Of a stretch of 33,982 bases of DNA, positions 131-33,871 are shown one piece after another. Every line of letters begins with the position of its first letter. Positions within the stretch are counted from its first letter, which is position 1. Under the pieces are notes generated by a model that did not search any database, was not told the origin of the DNA, and saw only the letters and a list, made by a program, of their open reading frames with translations. The DNA is taken from positions 1-33,982 of the IMG/VR virus record IMGVR_UViG_3300037847_003385; one strand, written 5' to 3'. The translations under genes were made by a program, and so were the position numbers. Source of the stretch: a virus.

Positions 131-237
131 GATTATCTCCAAAAACTAACGTCTGGTACTTGTACAACAGCTATCACGGTGCTATCTGTATTGTATAGAC
201 GAACAAACACCAAACGCTAGAAACGGGAGCAAGACAG
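131..237. promoter_or_regulatory. Divergent control region between leftward and rightward operons
   Basis: A 107-bp gap between the RHH gene (leftward) and the first rightward gene. It holds one copy of the dispersed element (149-168). Rightward, TTGTAC (160-165) and TATCTG (183-188) are spaced 17 bp apart as a weak -35/-10 pair. A second word, TGTATTGTATAGACG (187-201), recurs almost unchanged as TGTATTGTAGACG (2369-2381) before the gene at 2393. On the opposite strand the same stretch reads TATACAAT, a possible leftward -10. It is probably the main regulatory switch, but promoter positions are guesses. Confidence 0.55.
149..168 (+). promoter_or_regulatory. Dispersed element copy 1 (ACGTCTGGTNNTTGTACAA family)
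   Basis: Reads ACGTCTGGTACTTGTACAAC. It belongs to a family found in seven intergenic regions of this genome and shares the CTGG-N3-TTGTA core with the iterons inside the initiator gene. Here its TTGTAC half overlaps a possible -35 box of the rightward promoter. Confidence 0.6.
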
Positions 238-585
238 ATGCTGAAGTATCAAAACAAATTCCAAATGATGGATGTCATCAAAGCCTTCGACCACATGCCT
301 CGTCAGGGCGAGCTGGACATTTATGTTGTTGGACGGGTGATGGCCGCAACAGGCGCGGGTCACCCTGGCTACGGTCACTATGAGATCGAAGTCATTGCGA
401 CCAGTCATGGCCAATATGACCTGGATGAGATTGTTCGCGTCCCATACGAGATCGGTTTGGAGCATGAAGATCGCGTCACCCTGTGGCCAGACCAGGCTCT
501 CTGGACCGACAAGGGCATTCGTGAACAGGTTCGCGATGATGTCGAAGTCCAACAGGTGGATATCAAACATGAGGCGGTGGCCTAA
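238..585 (+). CDS. Hypothetical phage protein, first gene of rightward operon
   Basis: 115 aa, start ATG with GGGAG (225-229) eight bases upstream. No family recognised. The product is soluble, acidic overall and rich in His, Asp and Val, with no membrane segment. The segment around residues 20-60 is beta-like (LDIYVVGRVMAA and YEIEVIAT) with a Gly/His-rich turn (AGHPGYGHYE). It is the first gene after the divergent control region, so it is expected early. The next gene begins 30 bp after its stop. Confidence 0.75.
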   Translation: MLKYQNKFQMMDVIKAFDHMPRQGELDIYVVGRVMAATGAGHPGYGHYEIEVIATSHGQYDLDEIVRVPYEIGLEHEDRVTLWPDQALWTDKGIREQVRDDVEVQQVDIKHEAVA

Positions 586-615
586 CGGCCCCGCCACAAC
601 CAAGGGAGACAATCA

Positions 616-1005
616 ATGCATCTGACCGACACAGAAATTCTCGACAAGCTGGTCGCGGAAATTGCTTTTGTGAGCAAGAACCCTGACAGCCGTGCAGAGA
701 AAACCGCGCATGAATACGCGGCAATGCTTCTCGATTTTGTGCAGCGCCACACAGCAAAGCAGGTTGCTGTTCACAAAAGGGTCATCGGCTTCTGGGGCTC
801 AATGCACAGCCCAACATTCGGCACCGTTGTCCGGGTACGCAATGACGGGCTGGTCCGCATTGTCTGGGACGGCGACCTGAATTTTGCCGGCTGCTACGAC
901 ATCGAAGATATCGGCCCAAACTGGTTCGACGCCGCAACCAGCAAGCCCGGCGTCTACCTTTACGAAGAACCAGCGGAAGTTGACCAACCCGTTGCCGTCG
1001 CATAA
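616..1005 (+). CDS. Hypothetical phage protein
   Basis: 129 aa, start ATG with GGGAG twelve to eight bases upstream. No family recognised. The N-terminal ~45 residues are helical (EILDKLVAEIAF...EYAAMLLDFVQ). The second half looks like a small beta-barrel (FGTVVRVRNDGLVRIVWDGD then a YDIEDIGPNWFD segment), resembling SH3/Tudor-like nucleic-acid-binding folds only in general character. The stop TAA (1003-1005) abuts a reverse copy of the dispersed regulatory element, so transcription into the recombinase may be controlled there. Confidence 0.75.
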   Translation: MHLTDTEILDKLVAEIAFVSKNPDSRAEKTAHEYAAMLLDFVQRHTAKQVAVHKRVIGFWGSMHSPTFGTVVRVRNDGLVRIVWDGDLNFAGCYDIEDIGPNWFDAATSKPGVYLYEEPAEVDQPVAVA

Positions 1006-1061: not shown

Positions 1062-1844
1062 ATGCTGACAGAAACCAGACCAGACCACGGCGTTCCCCAT
1101 GAGGGCAGCTATGCTGCCTTCGTCCGGGTGTCTACCGACTTACAGGACAACGCCAATCAGGAGCATGGCATCAAGGCGTTCCTGAACGGCGGTGACCATA
1201 AGGTCAAATGGTTCCGCGAGGAGGGCGTGTCGTCCGGCAAGGACTGGCACCAGCGCCAGACTTTGCATGACTGCCTGAACTATTGCCGCAAGACCGGCGC
1301 GACCATGCTGATCTATACGCTGGACCGTATGAGCCGGCGCTTGTGGGAGACCCTGCGCTTCCTGGAGCAAGAGATCGACAACGGAAAGATCAAGCTGGTG
1401 GTCGTGGATGATCCGCACATGGATGAAACCACCATCACGCTCCGCGCCGCTGTCGCGCAGATTGAGCGCAAGCGCATTCAGACCCGCACCAAACAGGCGC
1501 TGCGCCGCATCAAGGACGAGATTGATGAGAAGGGTGAGTACACCACCAAAGAGGGCAGGGTGATCACCAAGCTCGGCTACCATGAAAACCTTGAGGTCGC
1601 CGGCATGAAAGGCAATGAGCGCAATACCGAGCTGGCCGACGGCCGGGCCGAGCAAATCTGGCCGGTCATCAAGATGTTCCGCGACAGTGGTTTGAGCTAC
1701 CGCGAGATCGCCCGTCGCCTGAACGATATGAATCAGCCTACGCCTACAGCAATGCGGACGCCCGACATCAGTCGGCAAACCGAATGGTACGCCAGCTCGG
1801 TCCGCAATTACGTTATCCGTATGGAAAAGAAGGGAGCGAAGTAA
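1062..1844 (+). CDS. Serine recombinase (resolvase/integrase family)
   Basis: 260 aa from ATG 1062, chosen over an in-frame ATG at 1005 because GGAGGG (1051-1056) sits five bases upstream and the longer form would code through a regulatory element. The catalytic domain shows R22-V-S24-T in FVRVSTD, with Ser24 as the likely nucleophile that forms the phosphoserine-DNA link, and the D88-R89-M-S91-R92 motif in YTLDRMSRR. A long helix (residues about 130-155, QIERKRIQTRTKQALRR) is the usual E-helix connector. The C-terminal ~80 residues (SGLSYREIARRLNDM, then W..SSVRNYVIR) match the start of the Recombinase DNA-binding domain. It is longer than invertases/resolvases (~190 aa) and much shorter than large serine integrases (450+ aa), lacking the zinc-ribbon/coiled-coil. 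It could integrate the phage, resolve multimers of a plasmid-like prophage, or invert DNA. No att or res site is evident. Confidence 0.9.
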   Translation: MLTETRPDHGVPHEGSYAAFVRVSTDLQDNANQEHGIKAFLNGGDHKVKWFREEGVSSGKDWHQRQTLHDCLNYCRKTGATMLIYTLDRMSRRLWETLRFLEQEIDNGKIKLVVVDDPHMDETTITLRAAVAQIERKRIQTRTKQALRRIKDEIDEKGEYTTKEGRVITKLGYHENLEVAGMKGNERNTELADGRAEQIWPVIKMFRDSGLSYREIARRLNDMNQPTPTAMRTPDISRQTEWYASSVRNYVIRMEKKGAK

Positions 1845-2341
1845 TGACAAAAGTTGACCAAATAGAATGGCACGATGTTCTTATTAACCCGCCGATGGGG
1901 CCTCCGGAGGATGTTGTCGAAGCCGCCTTGTTTAAGGCCTATGCCAAGGAATTATTTATCCGGGAGATGGTGGTCTACAATCATCGGCAAACTAGGATGA
2001 AGACCAAAGCACAAAGATATTTTAATTCGACGCCAAGCAGAAACGCGCTGGCCCGTGTCCTTTGCCTCGCGACATATGTCAACTCACCTTACACCAAAAC
2101 TGAGATTGCAGAGCAACTTCATGTCTCTCGCCAGACAGCCCATGACCTGGTCGAGGAGTGCCTTGCAGAAGGCTGGGCCGAGGAATGTGAGTGCTGCGCA
2201 AAGCACTACAAGGCAAGCCCTAGCTTAATTGAGGCTGGTGAAGCCTATGCCAAATTTAATTTCGACACGGTGAATAATTGCAGTGCAATCTATGCCTTTC
2301 AGGCGCTGGCATCCTATCAAAAGCTGCGTCAAGCCACTTGA
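1844..2341 (+). CDS. Winged-helix DNA-binding protein
   Basis: 165 aa from ATG 1844, which overlaps the recombinase stop by one base (TAATG) and has AGGGAG (1831-1836) upstream; an in-frame ATG at 1784 lies inside the recombinase gene. A MarR/ArsR-like winged helix-turn-helix is visible at about residues 70-120 (YTKTEIAEQLHVSRQTAHDL, followed by an EGWAEEC wing). The rest, including the C-terminal third, is not recognised. Four cysteines cluster after the HTH (CLAEGWAEECECC), possibly a metal site. The gene is richer in A+T than its neighbours, a hint of separate acquisition. Coupling to the recombinase suggests a regulator or directionality factor; this is inference. Confidence 0.82.
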   Translation: MTKVDQIEWHDVLINPPMGPPEDVVEAALFKAYAKELFIREMVVYNHRQTRMKTKAQRYFNSTPSRNALARVLCLATYVNSPYTKTEIAEQLHVSRQTAHDLVEECLAEGWAEECECCAKHYKASPSLIEAGEAYAKFNFDTVNNCSAIYAFQALASYQKLRQAT

Positions 2342-4324: not shown

Positions 4325-5270
4325 TAAGAAACTAACGGTCCTTGAACCGACCAACCTCACCGAGGCAATGGACTTTGCCAAGGTGATTGCACAGTCGCCG
4401 ATGGTGCCGGAAGCCTATCGCGGCAAACCGGCCAATGTCCTGGTCGCTGTCCAGTGGGGTTATGAGTTGGGCCTCGCACCGATGCAAGCCTTGCAGAACA
4501 TCTCCGTCATCAATGGCAAGCCATCGATCTGGGGTGACAGCATGCTGGCACTGGTCAAAGCGCATCCGGCCTTTCGCGGCATCAAGGAATACATGGACGG
4601 GGAGGTTGCGGTCTGCATAGTTAAACGTGCGCTGCCCAACGGCGAGATTGAAGAAACTAAGAAGACCTTTTCGATGGCCGAGGCAAAGCATGCCAAGCTG
4701 ACCGGCAAGGCTGGTGCCTGGCAGAACTATCCGAACCGGATGTTGCAGCTACGGGCGAGGGGCTTTGCCCTGCGTGATAGCTTTCCCGATGCCATCAAGG
4801 GGCTGATCACTGTCGAAGAGGCCCGTGACTACGATGCCCCCGAAAAACGTCCTCCTGTAAAGCCCGTACAAGCCCCGTCCGTATCGTCTGAGGGTGATCC
4901 TGTGCAAAACATACTAGAGGCCGTCAGTGAAGCTGAGAGCGCCAGCAATGAGGAGGTCGTTCTGCCGGCATTTATTTTGAACACACCGACCGGCAAAACG
5001 GAAACATATGGGTCACAGGATGAGTGGGCAACCAGCTACGCAGACCTGATGCTGAAGACGCGGACCTATTCTGATTGGACGCCCGAAGATCGGCGCACAA
5101 AATTGAAAGAGCTTGAAGAGTGCAACGCCGATGTCCTGGGTGAGATCGATGAAGCCTTGGCCACCGAGCTGAAGGACAAGCGGATCGCCTACAACAAGCA
5201 GTTGTCTATGGAAGCAAAGGAGGGTGACGATGAAGCACGGTCTTACGCTCAAACAAAAAGCGGTGTTTGA
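4314..5270 (+). CDS. recT: RecT-family single-strand annealing protein
   Basis: 318 aa. Two tandem ATGs (4314, 4317) follow TGGAG (4305-4309). The conserved RecT core is clear: residues about 45-85 (VQWGYELGLAPMQAL, ISVINGKPSIWGDSML) and 135-165 (GAWQNYPNRMLQLRARGFAL then RDSFPD), the segments that form the DNA-binding surface in this family. It anneals complementary single strands, here presumably the tails made by the YqaJ-type exonuclease at 3169. The C-terminal ~140 residues are acidic and variable (about 175-318), as usual for RecT proteins, where the tail contacts host SSB or other partners. Its presence in place of a phage DNA polymerase system points to recombination-assisted replication by host enzymes. 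Confidence 0.92.
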   Translation: MMNDKKLTVLEPTNLTEAMDFAKVIAQSPMVPEAYRGKPANVLVAVQWGYELGLAPMQALQNISVINGKPSIWGDSMLALVKAHPAFRGIKEYMDGEVAVCIVKRALPNGEIEETKKTFSMAEAKHAKLTGKAGAWQNYPNRMLQLRARGFALRDSFPDAIKGLITVEEARDYDAPEKRPPVKPVQAPSVSSEGDPVQNILEAVSEAESASNEEVVLPAFILNTPTGKTETYGSQDEWATSYADLMLKTRTYSDWTPEDRRTKLKELEECNADVLGEIDEALATELKDKRIAYNKQLSMEAKEGDDEARSYAQTKSGV

Positions 5271-5469
5271 TTTCATCCGGCTCTATATCAAAGCGAACGG
5301 TGTGTCGCCGTCGGTGCGTGATATTGCTGACGGCAAGATAGATGGCCAACAGGTTATGTCGCCACGCACCAGCTTGCAGTCGGTCCACCGCATGATCAAA
5401 TGCCTGGAGCAACGCGGCTGGATTCAGTCTCTGCCGGGCCAAGCCAGATCAATCACGATTTGCGACTAG
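5230..5469 (+). CDS. Stand-alone LexA-like winged-helix DNA-binding domain
   Basis: 79 aa from ATG 5230, with AAAGGAGGG (5216-5224) five bases upstream; a GTG at 5224 in the same frame overlaps that ribosome binding site and is less likely. The sequence follows the LexA N-terminal domain closely: LTLKQKAVFDFI, NGVSPSVRDIA, a recognition-helix region (SLQSVHRMIKCLEQRGWI) and the wing (GQARSI). The S24 protease/dimerisation domain of LexA is missing, so it cannot self-cleave. It may bind SOS-box-like sites or compete with host LexA, coupling induction to DNA damage; this is inference. It is the last rightward gene and converges on the leftward gene at 5466 with a 4-bp overlap of stop regions. 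Confidence 0.85.
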   Translation: MKHGLTLKQKAVFDFIRLYIKANGVSPSVRDIADGKIDGQQVMSPRTSLQSVHRMIKCLEQRGWIQSLPGQARSITICD

Positions 5470-24056: not shown

Positions 24057-24080
24057 ACACAACCTGGAGGTTGTAAATAC
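24045..24080 (-). promoter_or_regulatory. Possible capsid-operon promoter overlapped by an iteron-like element
   Basis: On the minus strand TTTACA (24077-24072) and TAGAAT (24052-24047) resemble sigma70 boxes, though the 19-bp spacer is long. Over the -35 side lies ACAACCTGGAGGTTGTA (24059-24075), a palindrome (ACAACCT/AGGTTGT) matching the initiator iterons at 15 of 20 positions (24057-24076). Its position just after a terminator and before the capsid leader supports a regulated promoter. Confidence 0.5.
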
Positions 24081-30303: not shown

Positions 30304-30461
30304 CGCTGCTTCCTTTCATGAAAAAGCTGGAAATATTTTTGTGTGACCCCCATGTATACGCGGCGACCGGGGAGGGGGCATGGGTGCCTTTTCGCAACCC
30401 GCCCGGTCGCGCCTGCCTGACAGCGTGACCAATGACCAGGCGAACGTCTGGTTGTTGTACA
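30304..30461. promoter_or_regulatory. Gene-free stretch upstream of the terminase operon
   Basis: A 158-bp gap. It contains a 9-bp inverted repeat GCGACCGGG (30363-30371) and CCCGGTCGC (30402-30410), separated by 30 bp rich in G and C runs, and two tandem TGACCA words (30425-30437) next to a dispersed element. No clear -10 box is seen. As the region directly before TerS it could hold the terminase recognition site or a promoter; neither is proven. Confidence 0.4.
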
Positions 30462-30464
30462 TCA
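30441..30464 (+). promoter_or_regulatory. Dispersed element copy 7
   Basis: Core reads AACGTCTGGTTGTTGTACAT, the copy most like the iterons (CTGG-N3-TTGTAC in full). It overlaps the last codons and stop of the initiator gene and lies at the upstream edge of the gap before the terminase operon. Confidence 0.6.
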
Positions 30465-31373
30465 TGCTGTCTCCCGGCTCTGCTTTCTAGATATGAAATA
30501 CTGCAAGGACGTTGGTGGCTGCTTGTTGTGGCGCACCAGCCAGTCCAGCATGCGTTCGCTGTCTGCCGCAAAGCTCTCGACTGTGTAGCCTAGTGCCAAG
30601 AGCTGTGCTGCCAGTTCCTCTTGCCTGAGATCGTGCCTGAACCTGCTGCCCCATCGCTGCGCGACCGCGTGTGCGTATGTCATGCAGAGCTTCCTACATT
30701 CACTTTCTTTAATCTCTTTACATCTATTGTTAAGATGTAGGTTAGGTACAACCTGGGTGTTGTATTCTCGTACAACCTGGGTGTTGTACTGTCTCTCCTC
30801 TTGCGACAACCTGGGTGTTGTACGACTGCGATCTTTCAGTGCGCTGGTCGTCTGCTTGATGAGGGCATTTACATCCTTCTGTCGCTGCTTTGACTGCTGT
30901 CCTTTGGCCCCTTTTGCGGCCTCTTCGATGGTGCTTGCGGCGGTCTCTTGTTCTTCTTCCTCGGTCTTGTGCAGTCGTGCCGCGGCGGCTTCCACGTCTT
31001 TCAGGGACTGTGTCGGGTCATAGATCACGCGCCAGACTGCGCCCTTCTTTCCGTATGGGCGTTTGCTGTTTTCGTTCCTGACCTTCTCCAGGTATCCGAG
31101 CTCGACCAGCTTTCTGAAGTGCCTGGACACGGCTTGCTGTGACATCTCCAGGTCACGGGCGATGGTTCGTTGGTTCACCCAAAATGTGCCAGTGTATGCG
31201 GATGCATGGGCGCAGGCGTAGCATAGGATCACCATTGCCATCGGGAAGCGTGTGAAGCTGGTGTCTCTGGTGGCTCTGCCGGGTATCCAGGCTCCGGCAC
31301 CGGGCGACTGTCCGTCACCGCGTCCGTCTGGTGCGTCTCGCACTGGATCGGGTGTGAGCTTAGACTTCTGCAT
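30462..31373 (-). CDS. Replication initiator with winged-helix domain
   Basis: 303 aa from ATG 31373, GGAGG six bases upstream; the start overlaps the preceding stop. A winged HTH lies at about residues 64-100 (NQRTIARDLEMSQQAVSRHF, then a LGYLEKV wing). A charged, Glu/Ala-rich linker follows (about 124-180), then a repeat-encoded stretch (YNTQVV twice, 196-209) and a C-terminal domain (about 220-303). Phage initiators of the lambda-O type have this order (N-terminal HTH, linker, partner-binding C-terminus) and carry the origin inside the gene. Three iterons sit at 30746-30823, matching this idea. It may recruit host helicase directly. The specific partner is unknown. Confidence 0.75.
   Translation of the reverse strand: MQKSKLTPDPVRDAPDGRGDGQSPGAGAWIPGRATRDTSFTRFPMAMVILCYACAHASAYTGTFWVNQRTIARDLEMSQQAVSRHFRKLVELGYLEKVRNENSKRPYGKKGAVWRVIYDPTQSLKDVEAAAARLHKTEEEEQETAASTIEEAAKGAKGQQSKQRQKDVNALIKQTTSALKDRSRTTPRLSQEERQYNTQVVREYNTQVVPNLHLNNRCKEIKESECRKLCMTYAHAVAQRWGSRFRHDLRQEELAAQLLALGYTVESFAADSERMLDWLVRHNKQPPTSLQYFISRKQSRETA
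30746..30823. repeat. Three iterons, candidate replication origin
   Basis: Copies at 30746-30765, 30770-30789 and 30804-30823. The middle one is GTACAACCTGGGTGTTGTAC, a perfect 7-bp inverted repeat around CTGGGT; the others differ at one or two end bases. Start-to-start spacings are 24 and 34 bp. The third copy lies in a different reading frame from the first two, so the conserved unit is the DNA, not the peptide. A comparatively A+T-rich stretch (30700-30745, including AATCTCTTTACATCTATTG) is adjacent, as at many origins. Confidence 0.72.
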
Positions 31374-31375
31374 CG
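31350..31375. repeat. Direct repeat at the initiator start (pairs with 31810-31835)
   Basis: 26-bp window matching 31810-31835 at 22 positions, including AGCTTA and CTTCTGCATCG. It holds the stop of one gene and the start of the next in both places; both downstream proteins begin MQKSKLTP. Confidence 0.75.
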
Positions 31376-31833
31376 CCGGCCTCCCACCTGAATTTCAGTT
31401 GGCCGTAGATCGGTTGCCAATCTCTGTTCCCGCCGCGCTGCGTCCAGCGGTCGTGCGGTTTCACTTCACCGACAATCTTCCAGCCAGCTCCTTTGAGGGA
31501 TGCGCCGCTCTCTTCTTGTAGCGTGTAGGTCACCATCCTTGTGCCGCCCATTTGCTGCCAAATGCGCCAACAGCGTCCGTAAAGAAACGAACAGGCATTG
31601 CGCGGCGCATGATCTCTGACACACACACGGTTCACTTCAGCGGTCCAGCCGTCATCAAGTATGGCAGAAACGGGTCTGCCGACGATGGCAACGCCGACAA
31701 TCTCGTTGTTAAACAGAGCGCCGATAGAAAACTTACCGCCTTGTGTGGGCTTGTTATGCCGGTGGAAGTTGGCAACAAACTCGTTAGCCTCGCGCAACGA
31801 TATCGGCATGGGCGTCAGCTTACTCTTCTGCAT
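31360..31833 (-). CDS. XF1762-like protein (GNAT-type fold)
   Basis: 157 aa from ATG 31833. It follows the XF1762 family: PISLREANEFVANFHRHNKP, then IGALFNNEIVGVAIVGRPVS, DDGWTAEVNRVCVRDHAPRN and the terminal ASLKGAGWKIVGEVKPHD. The layout resembles a GNAT acetyltransferase with the R/N-ACS-LYG segment (NACSFLYGRCWRIWQ) as cofactor helix. Function unproven; members are common in phages. The gene is flanked by the 26-bp direct repeats and its first residues MQKSKLTP equal those of the initiator, which suggests insertion or duplication at this junction. Confidence 0.78.
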   Translation of the reverse strand: MQKSKLTPMPISLREANEFVANFHRHNKPTQGGKFSIGALFNNEIVGVAIVGRPVSAILDDGWTAEVNRVCVRDHAPRNACSFLYGRCWRIWQQMGGTRMVTYTLQEESGASLKGAGWKIVGEVKPHDRWTQRGGNRDWQPIYGQLKFRWEAGDAEV

Positions 31834-31835
31834 CG
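31810..31835. repeat. Direct repeat at the XF1762-like gene start (pairs with 31350-31375)
   Basis: Second copy of the stop/start cassette. Upstream methyltransferase-like protein ends DAEE and the XF1762-like protein ends DAEV, each followed by TAA inside the next MQKSK-coding start. Confidence 0.75.
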
Positions 31836-32371
31836 GTGATCCATTCGATGACGGGTGCCGGCAGTGCCAGGCGTGACTTGACGACGTGCAGCCGGTCCCA
31901 AATGAACCAGGCATATGCTGTGGTGCCGGTGCTGGTCTGGTCCTGATCGCCGCGCCAGATCGTCAGGCGGTGGCTGAATACATGGATACGGGCGGGTGGG
32001 TGCTTGCTGAACAGCCTCTGGTAGCGTCCTACGCCCTCCAGGAAGGACAGTCGCAGCAGATAGGCATGCTTGGTGCATCCGAGATGTATGGCGTGGCTGA
32101 TGAAGTTCTCGGCCAGTCTGTATGGCGGGTTGGTGATCAGGTGATCAGCCTGGCGTGTTTGCTCCAGGAGGAAATCGATGCCGGGCGGGCAATATCCGTA
32201 GTCGTTCAGATCGGAACAGATGGTTTCGATGCCTTGCCGGCGGCAGACATTTGCCAGTGCGCCATTGCCGGCGGCTGGTTCCCATATGGTTGGCCCGAAG
32301 GATTCACGGCGCAGCAATGCCCTGGTTGCCTCGGGCGGTGTCGGATAGAAGTCGTCCTTATGTCTTGTCAT
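31820..32371 (-). CDS. DNA adenine methyltransferase-like protein
   Basis: 183 aa from ATG 32371; earlier in-frame residues overlap the zinc-ribbon gene out of frame. The order is DDFYPTPPEATRALLRRE, motif I-like IWEPAAGNGALANV (residues about 27-41), a substrate strand with acidic end (ICSDLNDYG) and motif IV TNPPY (about 79-83), as in N6-adenine methyltransferases. It is short, with no obvious target-recognition domain. It could protect phage DNA from host restriction or mark the origin. Overlaps the zinc-ribbon gene by 14 bp. Confidence 0.82.
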   Translation of the reverse strand: MTRHKDDFYPTPPEATRALLRRESFGPTIWEPAAGNGALANVCRRQGIETICSDLNDYGYCPPGIDFLLEQTRQADHLITNPPYRLAENFISHAIHLGCTKHAYLLRLSFLEGVGRYQRLFSKHPPARIHVFSHRLTIWRGDQDQTSTGTTAYAWFIWDRLHVVKSRLALPAPVIEWITDAEE

Positions 32372-32594
32372 CGATCTCTTCCGGCAGCTCGACGTACCCT
32401 TTGCCTTCGCACACTGGGCATTGTCCGTATCCGGTCGTGATGTCACCGCCTCGGATGTAGTCCGGCACGGTGACCTCGACCTCGCATTCGCCTTGTGCAT
32501 CGCAGTGTTCGCACTCCAGCACCTCGCGCCATTCGCCTGGCACGGTCGAGATGCGAACCCTCCGATCGGGAATGCTGCTAAAGCCTCTAGCCAT
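32358..32594 (-). CDS. Small zinc-ribbon protein
   Basis: 78 aa with two CxxC pairs (CEHCDAQG and CPVCEGKG), each followed by a Gly, as in DnaJ-type zinc knuckles. Between them is a beta-like stretch (VEVTVPDYIRGGDITTGYGQ). It may bind nucleic acid or stabilise a partner protein. Its start overlaps the HNH gene stop by one base (TAATG). Confidence 0.72.
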   Translation of the reverse strand: MARGFSSIPDRRVRISTVPGEWREVLECEHCDAQGECEVEVTVPDYIRGGDITTGYGQCPVCEGKGYVELPEEIDDKT

Positions 32595-33244
32595 TAGTTA
32601 TCGTTGGTCGATACGAGGCCGAGGGCAGGGTGCTTGAAGACGTGCCGGCGGTGATAATCCATGAATTCATCACGCGCCCTGGCTGCATCCAGGAATGCCT
32701 TGCGTTGCCGTCTATGCTCACGCTCTGCAAAGCTACCCTTTGGGTGCGCGACCTTGGGCGGCACGAACATTGGCTTGATCTTGCATTTGTCGCCGCCGTT
32801 GCGCCATGCGCGCATCCACTCTTCACCAAACGCAATGTAGAGCTGGTCATTGTAAATAGGGCCAAGCACCTCGCCGATCTTCGATGAGATCATCAGCAAC
32901 CCCTCTGGGTCGAACGAGATGAAGCCTTTGTCGAAGAGCTGGTCATGGTCGCCGCGCAGCAGCAGGCCGTTGGCTTCGTGCAGGGCTTCAGCTTCATTCG
33001 CGCAGTGTCGCAGTGGCTTGATGTGACTAGCGACCAGGTTGATGCGGGAGCCGGTTATCTGGCAAACCCGCTGCTTTTTGCGGAGCTGCTTTCTGAACGT
33101 CGTCCGCAGCTTTTTCTGTTCGCTGTCGGTCAGTGACTTCGCGTAGGCGGTGACCAGTCCCTTGTCAGGATTGTCTGCGCCCCATCTTTTCAGCTCTGAT
33201 TCGAGTGTGTTTCCGGCATCAAGTCTACGCATTGCCGCCACCAT
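32594..33244 (-). CDS. HNH endonuclease-like protein
   Basis: 216 aa from ATG 33244 (an ATG at 33232 is also possible). The centre follows the HNH_2 pattern: VCQITGSRINLVASHIKPLR, then EANGLLLRGDHDQLFDKGFI, with the paired His/Asn/His-Asp positions expected of the metal site. The N-terminal ~60 residues are basic and helical. Such proteins may nick or cut DNA near cos or replication sites, or be mobile. The place in a replication operon favours a role in DNA processing. Overlaps the DnaA-like gene by 20 bp. Confidence 0.78.
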   Translation of the reverse strand: MVAAMRRLDAGNTLESELKRWGADNPDKGLVTAYAKSLTDSEQKKLRTTFRKQLRKKQRVCQITGSRINLVASHIKPLRHCANEAEALHEANGLLLRGDHDQLFDKGFISFDPEGLLMISSKIGEVLGPIYNDQLYIAFGEEWMRAWRNGGDKCKIKPMFVPPKVAHPKGSFAEREHRRQRKAFLDAARARDEFMDYHRRHVFKHPALGLVSTNDN

Positions 33245-33698
33245 TCAGCTCTGACTTCAGCTTGTCGTATGTGAAGCGCAGGGCATGGTCAGTTTCCATG
33301 CGTTCCCTAGCGCGGTTGCAGCCATGCCAGATCGTGCTGTGGTCACGGTTCATGGCCTTGCCGATTTGCATCAGGCTCTGGTGGCTGAGTTCATAGGCCA
33401 GCAGGAACATGAGGTGACGCCACCGGGCGAGGGCATGCTTGCGGCCACGGCCCAGCATCACCTCGGTGGGGATGTCTGCCTCTCGGCTGACGGCTATGAC
33501 AATGGCTTTGACCGATACGCTCTGGGCGATATCTCCGAGATTTTCGTGCCGGGGTACAGAGCTTCGACTAGCTTCTTCTTGAGCTTGTAAACGTCCGTTT
33601 TGAACCCCTTCACGTCCTCCACTATTTGGCACCCAACTTGGCCGGCGGGTCCGCTCTGAGAAGTATCGAAATATCGAAAGTCCGGTAGGTAGTCGCAT
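33225..33698 (-). CDS. DnaA domain IV-like DNA-binding protein
   Basis: 157 aa from ATG 33698 with GGAG seven bases upstream; a GTG at 33722 and one at 33632 are alternatives. Residues about 70-145 match DnaA domain IV: VKAIVIAVSREADIPTEVML, GRGRKHALARWRHLMFLLAY, and the signature RDHSTIWHG that reads the DnaA box. There is no AAA+ ATPase. The first ~60 residues are Arg/Ser-rich and overlap the DUF1064 gene over 205 bp, so their sequence is probably overprinted and poorly constrained. It may bind DnaA-box-like sites or block host DnaA. Confidence 0.75.
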   Translation of the reverse strand: MRLPTGLSIFRYFSERTRRPSWVPNSGGREGVQNGRLQAQEEASRSSVPRHENLGDIAQSVSVKAIVIAVSREADIPTEVMLGRGRKHALARWRHLMFLLAYELSHQSLMQIGKAMNRDHSTIWHGCNRARERMETDHALRFTYDKLKSELNGGGNA

Positions 33699-33871
33699 AT
33701 TTTCACTCCATTGATTTCGCACCTGATCCGGGGATGGATTTCGAGGTGGCTGATTTCCCCGGCTTCAAGGCGGGGTTTGAGTGTGTGGAGGTAGTGCTTG
33801 GCCTCGGCCTGGCTGTCGAAGACGTGGCCGTCCAGCTCCACCTTCTTGTTTCGGAACTTGCTAGGCGGCAT
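33494..33871 (-). CDS. DUF1064 protein (predicted nuclease fold)
   Basis: 125 aa from ATG 33871 (a GTG at 33874 is adjacent). The family pattern is clear: PPSKFRNKKVELDGHVFDSQ, AEAKHYLHTLKPRLEAGEIS, LEIHPRIRCEINGVKICDYL, then PDFRYFD and VEDVKGFKTDVYKLKKKL. The ordered acidic and Lys residues (E/D..DF..E-x-K) fit a PD-(D/E)XK nuclease fold, and phage members are suspected junction or repair nucleases. Its start overlaps the RHH stop by 11 bp; its 3' half overlaps the DnaA-like gene in another frame. Confidence 0.82.
   Translation of the reverse strand: MPPSKFRNKKVELDGHVFDSQAEAKHYLHTLKPRLEAGEISHLEIHPRIRCEINGVKICDYLPDFRYFDTSQSGPAGQVGCQIVEDVKGFKTDVYKLKKKLVEALYPGTKISEISPRAYRSKPLS

Follow-up and report, generated by a model that had tools for sequence, protein, structure and literature searches.

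A likely replication origin inside the initiator gene of a marine phage from an almost uncultured family

The iterons of the bacteriophage lambda origin are interrupted palindromes, and we know of no DnaA box beside them. They are followed by an AT-rich tract and reside in the middle of the gene for the initiator, lambda O; two iterons together with the adjoining tract make up the minimal unwinding unit (PMC7466680). In plasmid initiators of the pSK41 RepA_N type the origin boxes are central in rep, where they encode a linker that is dispensable and connects the winged-helix N domain to the C domain (PMC5703833). The N domain of the Rep protein from plasmid pPR9 belongs to pfam13730 (HTH_36), and the block comprising N domain and origin differs from that of pSK41 as a unit (PMC5703833). 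Here, we describe a locus in a virus record of 33,982 bases (the whole stretch analyzed, referred to as the window) that by analogy appears to work like the lambda O and pSK41 RepA_N origins, while matching the profile of neither family. Judged from sequence, it points to a marine phage with a likely origin inside its initiator gene, as in lambda, that is, a system of an already known kind in an almost uncultured family.

The putative initiator gene (30462-31373, minus strand) encodes 303 amino acids and is identified by HTH_36 (8.4e-10; 38.8 bits, exceeding the curated cut-off of 25) and by PHROG 270, 391 and 428 (replication initiation, 1e-10). The window protein and its relatives match the 'replication initiation' or 'O-like' families PHROG 270, 391, 428, 345 and 678 with E-values down to 1e-10, a likeness that consists of sequence matches, the family names being annotations. 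An AlphaFold2 (AF2) model predicts an N-terminal winged helix, a disordered linker and a C-terminal helical domain. The winged-helix DNA-binding domain (31008-31262, minus strand; about residues 38-122) has a MarR-like fold according to the HTH_36 match, the AF2 model and structure matches, and it contains the recognition helix SQQAVSRHFRKL of the QQ class (31107-31142, minus strand; residues 78-89). The C-terminal helical domain (30468-30707, minus strand; residues 223-302; pLDDT about 78-86) is a candidate for binding a partner, helicase or primase. Structure matches of the initiator indicate a winged helix and nothing more specific, and a sequence search against the PDB returned nothing informative. 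The Rep N-terminal domain structures 4pt7 and 5kbj align to the window winged helix with Z scores of 8.1 (4pt7) and 7.4 (5kbj), values that many unrelated winged helices reach as well. At an E-value of 0.1 the window initiator matched neither Phage_rep_O (PF04492, the lambda O family), which the same profile library does find at 5e-14 in locus L180, nor the RepA_N domain, and we therefore file it in neither family. It shares its Pfam family, HTH_36, with the N domain of pPR9 Rep, and its sites lie in the linker-coding middle of the gene as in RepA_N initiators, which are, however, of plasmid and not of phage origin. Just upstream, the initiator gene is adjoined by genes for a Mom-like DNA modification protein (31360-31914, minus strand; PHROG 1384, 2e-40) and a DNA methyltransferase (31820-32500, minus strand; PHROG 799, 6e-58).

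Three copies of the 20-bp partial palindrome ACAACACCCAGGTTGT are located inside the initiator gene, 24 and 34 bp apart. Iteron 1, the first in gene direction, is found at 30804-30823, iteron 2 with perfect 7-bp arms (GTACAAC/GTTGTAC) at 30770-30789 and iteron 3, 24 bp from iteron 2, at 30746-30765 (all given on the plus strand). All three share the 16-bp core ACAACCTGGGTGTTGT without a mismatch; with up to three mismatches allowed it has four matches, where 0.25 would be expected, and four matches did not arise in any of 100 shuffles. The iterons start in gene frames 2, 2 and 1, iteron 1 differing in frame from the other two, and are translated as YNTQVV twice and as RTTPRLS once. When synonymous codons were shuffled with the amino acid sequence and the codon pool of the gene kept constant, three sites arose in one of 20,000 trials. 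An earlier note on this DNA had described three near-identical partial palindromes of this length, read in two frames and not explicable by protein repetition, and all of these statements hold. Iteron 3 adjoins an AT-rich tract (30695-30739) that directly abuts the iterons on their 3' side, has a GC content of 24%, represents the joint lowest 45-bp window of the record and is a candidate unwinding element. The lambda O-like layout that had been proposed thus stands as regards iterons followed by an AT-rich tract in the initiator linker, but does not extend to a Phage_rep_O profile match. Iteron sequence and number (two to three; in the window, two of them form a pair 24 bp apart) also differ from lambda. 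In the AF2 model the residues encoded by the iterons are part of the linker that joins the winged helix to the C-terminal helical domain and is modeled with low confidence (residues 138-218). Since the iterons sit where the gene encodes this predicted disordered linker, the DNA signal would place little burden on the protein.

Five close relatives (87-96% identity) were found by protein similarity, and five full-length genes, the window included, were compared. All 30 columns of the half-site arms (ACAAC and GTTGT) are invariant, as compared with 10 of 18 columns in the six-base centers and 222 of 325 in the 150-base flanks. Where the residue is unchanged, the third codon position is conserved in seven of seven cases inside the arms versus 131 of 227 outside. 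That the iterons are kept as DNA, and not as protein, inside the gene of their own initiator is strongly supported.

The family was followed further with a pattern of two half-site pairs 24 bp apart, a scan for single sites being too unspecific for use. This pattern occurs at 32 viral loci, nearly all in a gene for a winged-helix initiator; the matches in L129 and L154 lie in structural genes and are probably due to chance. Initiators found in this way are as little as 22% identical to that of the window, and N..VV....N..VV is invariant in their otherwise barely alignable linker, a trace of the iterons that is circular if taken alone, as the alignment had been chosen by the pattern. The family was therefore searched anew by protein profile. 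Clustering of the matches and the window at 80% identity resulted in 31 clusters, which is a lower bound of family size as protein-based scans find only contigs sharing short peptides. In these clusters, about 62 ACAAC/GTTGT palindromes (counted with spacers of 6 to 8, plus two of deviating length) are present in 30.2 kb of initiator gene versus three in 195.7 kb elsewhere, while permuted half-sites yielded none or one, or eight for one overlapping permutation. Across the family the iterons make use of all three reading frames. The spacer between half-sites amounts to 6, 7 or 8 bp, is constant among the copies within one gene and lineage-specific, and follows the winged-helix tree with four changes, as compared with a minimum of six and a mean of 9.9 in 300 shuffles. 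The 60 bp located 3' of the last iteron have a mean GC content of 31% versus 56% for the gene and are lower in each of the 27 measurable clusters. Cluster L277 (ten loci) comprises a homologous initiator without recognizable iterons. Among plasmid records there is one weak match.

Many relatives differ from what is known of lambda in that a perfect DnaA box accompanies the iterons. In most of those found by pattern (initiator genes of L127-L153) the box TGTGGATAA precedes the first iteron by 20-55 bp and is usually the sole exact copy in its record. About half of the clusters found by protein have a DnaA box near the iterons, and their initiator genes harbor 16 exact boxes versus a mean of 0.155 for shuffled 9-mers. 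The window record does not contain an exact TTATCCACA box anywhere, and in its close relatives no DnaA box accompanies the iterons. The gene block of the window initiator also includes, upstream, a gene for a protein that consists of DnaA domain IV only (33225-33722, minus strand; PF08299, 6.8e-15). This protein also occurs in the close relatives and in the L145/L150 lineage and has no match among phage isolates. It is possibly related to the loss of the DnaA box in the window lineage; a strict anticorrelation of protein and box is rejected, as the L145/L150 lineage has both.

Taken together, we consider it highly probable (about 0.86) that the repeats are the iterons of the phage's origin, located within the coding sequence of the initiator that would bind them. 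As to binding, dimer stoichiometry, melting, partner recruitment and firing of the origin, we infer the following course. Each ACAAC-N6-GTTGT palindrome would be read by a winged-helix dimer of the initiator, the two half-sites facing the same side of the DNA at a distance of about one helical turn. Two or three such dimers would assemble on the iterons, the AT-rich tract beside them would melt, and the C-terminal domain of the initiator may then recruit the host replisome.

The initiator might instead use the sites as operators, repressing or regulating its own gene or operon, with the origin located elsewhere. Its fold does resemble dimeric repressors of the MarR type, and one orphan consensus palindrome, ACAACCTGGAGGTTGT, is situated between the scaffold and capsid genes, upstream of the latter (24059-24074, plus strand). 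The iterons, however, lie in the middle of the gene, not at a promoter, and there is no promoter-like match at 30400-31500. An origin is in keeping with the AT-rich tract 3' of the sites in every measurable cluster and with the nearby DnaA boxes of about half the clusters, and in related records sites are nearly absent outside the initiator gene. The orphan, which may be real or a chance occurrence, is absent from eight relatives carrying that capsid gene, and six near-complete relatives do not contain dispersed sites; the extra site seen in G008, G010 and G016 is at another place. An idea of dispersed operators is thus rejected. The 'dispersed intergenic sites' of the earlier note come down to this one further half-site pair, and the suggestion built on them, an initiator that also acts as a transcription regulator, finds no support. 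Altogether, we regard an operator function with the origin elsewhere as improbable.

Returning to origin iterons bound by their own initiator, relatives whose recognition helix differs in a residue have different half-sites at the corresponding position of the gene. In an exploratory set, helices beginning with [ST]QQ go along with the half-site ACAACC (45/45). Among helices beginning with [ST]RQ, those in which position 7 is K or R go along with GCAACC (14/14) and those in which it is N with GGACACT (19/19). Helix and half-site class agree in all 78 assignable rows of this set, after the viewing of which the classes had been defined; two further genes remained without assignment. The rule, fixed beforehand, was then applied to ten further genes that did not closely match earlier ones, eight of them in the commonest class. 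Nine were concordant, none was discordant and one remained unassigned, in a set that is not fully independent, since one member, L412, shares 95% DNA identity with a gene of the earlier set. The helix switched independently five times on the tree, two of these switches being on well-supported branches; both are concordant, a number too small for a significant sign test. Because the recognition helix, which covaries with the half-site across the family, predicts the half-site class, the initiator's own winged helix is, on sequence grounds, very probably the reader of the iterons. In L435 (helix SRQAISNQ), the iterons, if any, are outside all three half-site classes.

The same observations bear on two further readings. 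RNA hairpins in the initiator mRNA, serving stability, translation or termination, would be in keeping with palindromic repeats whose two arms change together between lineages. However, the arms are invariant, without so much as a change to G-U, in the five full-length genes from the window group, the half-site class goes with the recognition helix of the initiator and no terminator-like site was seen, such that we attach very little probability to hairpins. Equally remote is the notion that the sites are read by another DNA-binding protein, for example a phage LexA-like repressor. The window does encode a LexA-type DNA-binding protein (5224-5469), but the cut-off of that family is reached in only seven of the 31 records, and a LexA-like repressor is therefore not the general reader; the 32-35 kb records G008, G011, G014, G019 and G028 have iterons and no match to it, and the site class covaries with the helix of the initiator. 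Least credible of all is repetition at the protein level, a tandem NxxVV motif without selection on DNA, for although most copies share one frame and read NLEVV or NTQVV, this is contradicted by copies in other frames in several lineages (all three frames being used), by the third positions retained inside the arms and by the rarity with which synonymous shuffles yield sites.

As the likely origin iterons and their probable reader belong to one gene, changes at this single locus can alter origin specificity. It is conceivable, albeit doubtful, that recognition helix and in-gene iterons form one inherited unit that switches specificity as a block, the origin specificity of uncultured phages being readable from the initiator sequence alone, and that, in addition, the window lineage dropped the DnaA box while carrying a DnaA domain IV-only protein that could occupy host DnaA boxes and leave the phage origin free of DnaA control. 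The absence of the box in the window lineage together with the DnaA domain IV protein of the phage poses a concrete question on dependence on host initiation. The locus provides an origin candidate for an aquatic phage group with almost no isolates, origins could be annotated across metagenomic phages, and a few substitutions would suffice for binding assays based on the helix-to-half-site rule.

The single distant isolate match among 50,697 phage records is Methylophilales phage MEP301, the gp55 protein of which is the nearest isolate homologue (33-37% identity across the winged helix when relatives of the window protein are used as queries). Its connector protein is 58% identical to that of the window. 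With 201 residues gp55 is shorter than the window initiator, and it is annotated as hypothetical; the MEP301 genome does not contain such iterons, and we found neither an origin nor an initiator described in the corresponding paper (PMC8024684).

Similar sites were also noted outside the family. Matches to the 24-bp pair in genome collections were discarded, as they mostly represent an interspersed repeat of Obscuribacter-type MAGs that lies between genes and is apparently unrelated to phage origins; about 45 ACAAC-N6-GTTGT pairs with 24-bp spacing, most of them intergenic, are spread across two MAGs, Obscuribacter and a cyanobacterium (L157-L214). A viral contig with 67% GC (L134) has ACAACCGTAGRGTTGT three times within a gene at 1362-2225 (plus strand), together with two perfect DnaA boxes; the product of this gene has no family match, and an AT-rich flank is lacking. 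In L180 from a Clostridia MAG (216-908, minus strand), a true Phage_rep_O protein is encoded by a gene that itself harbors ACAAC-N6-GTTGT iterons 24 bp apart with an AT-rich flank.
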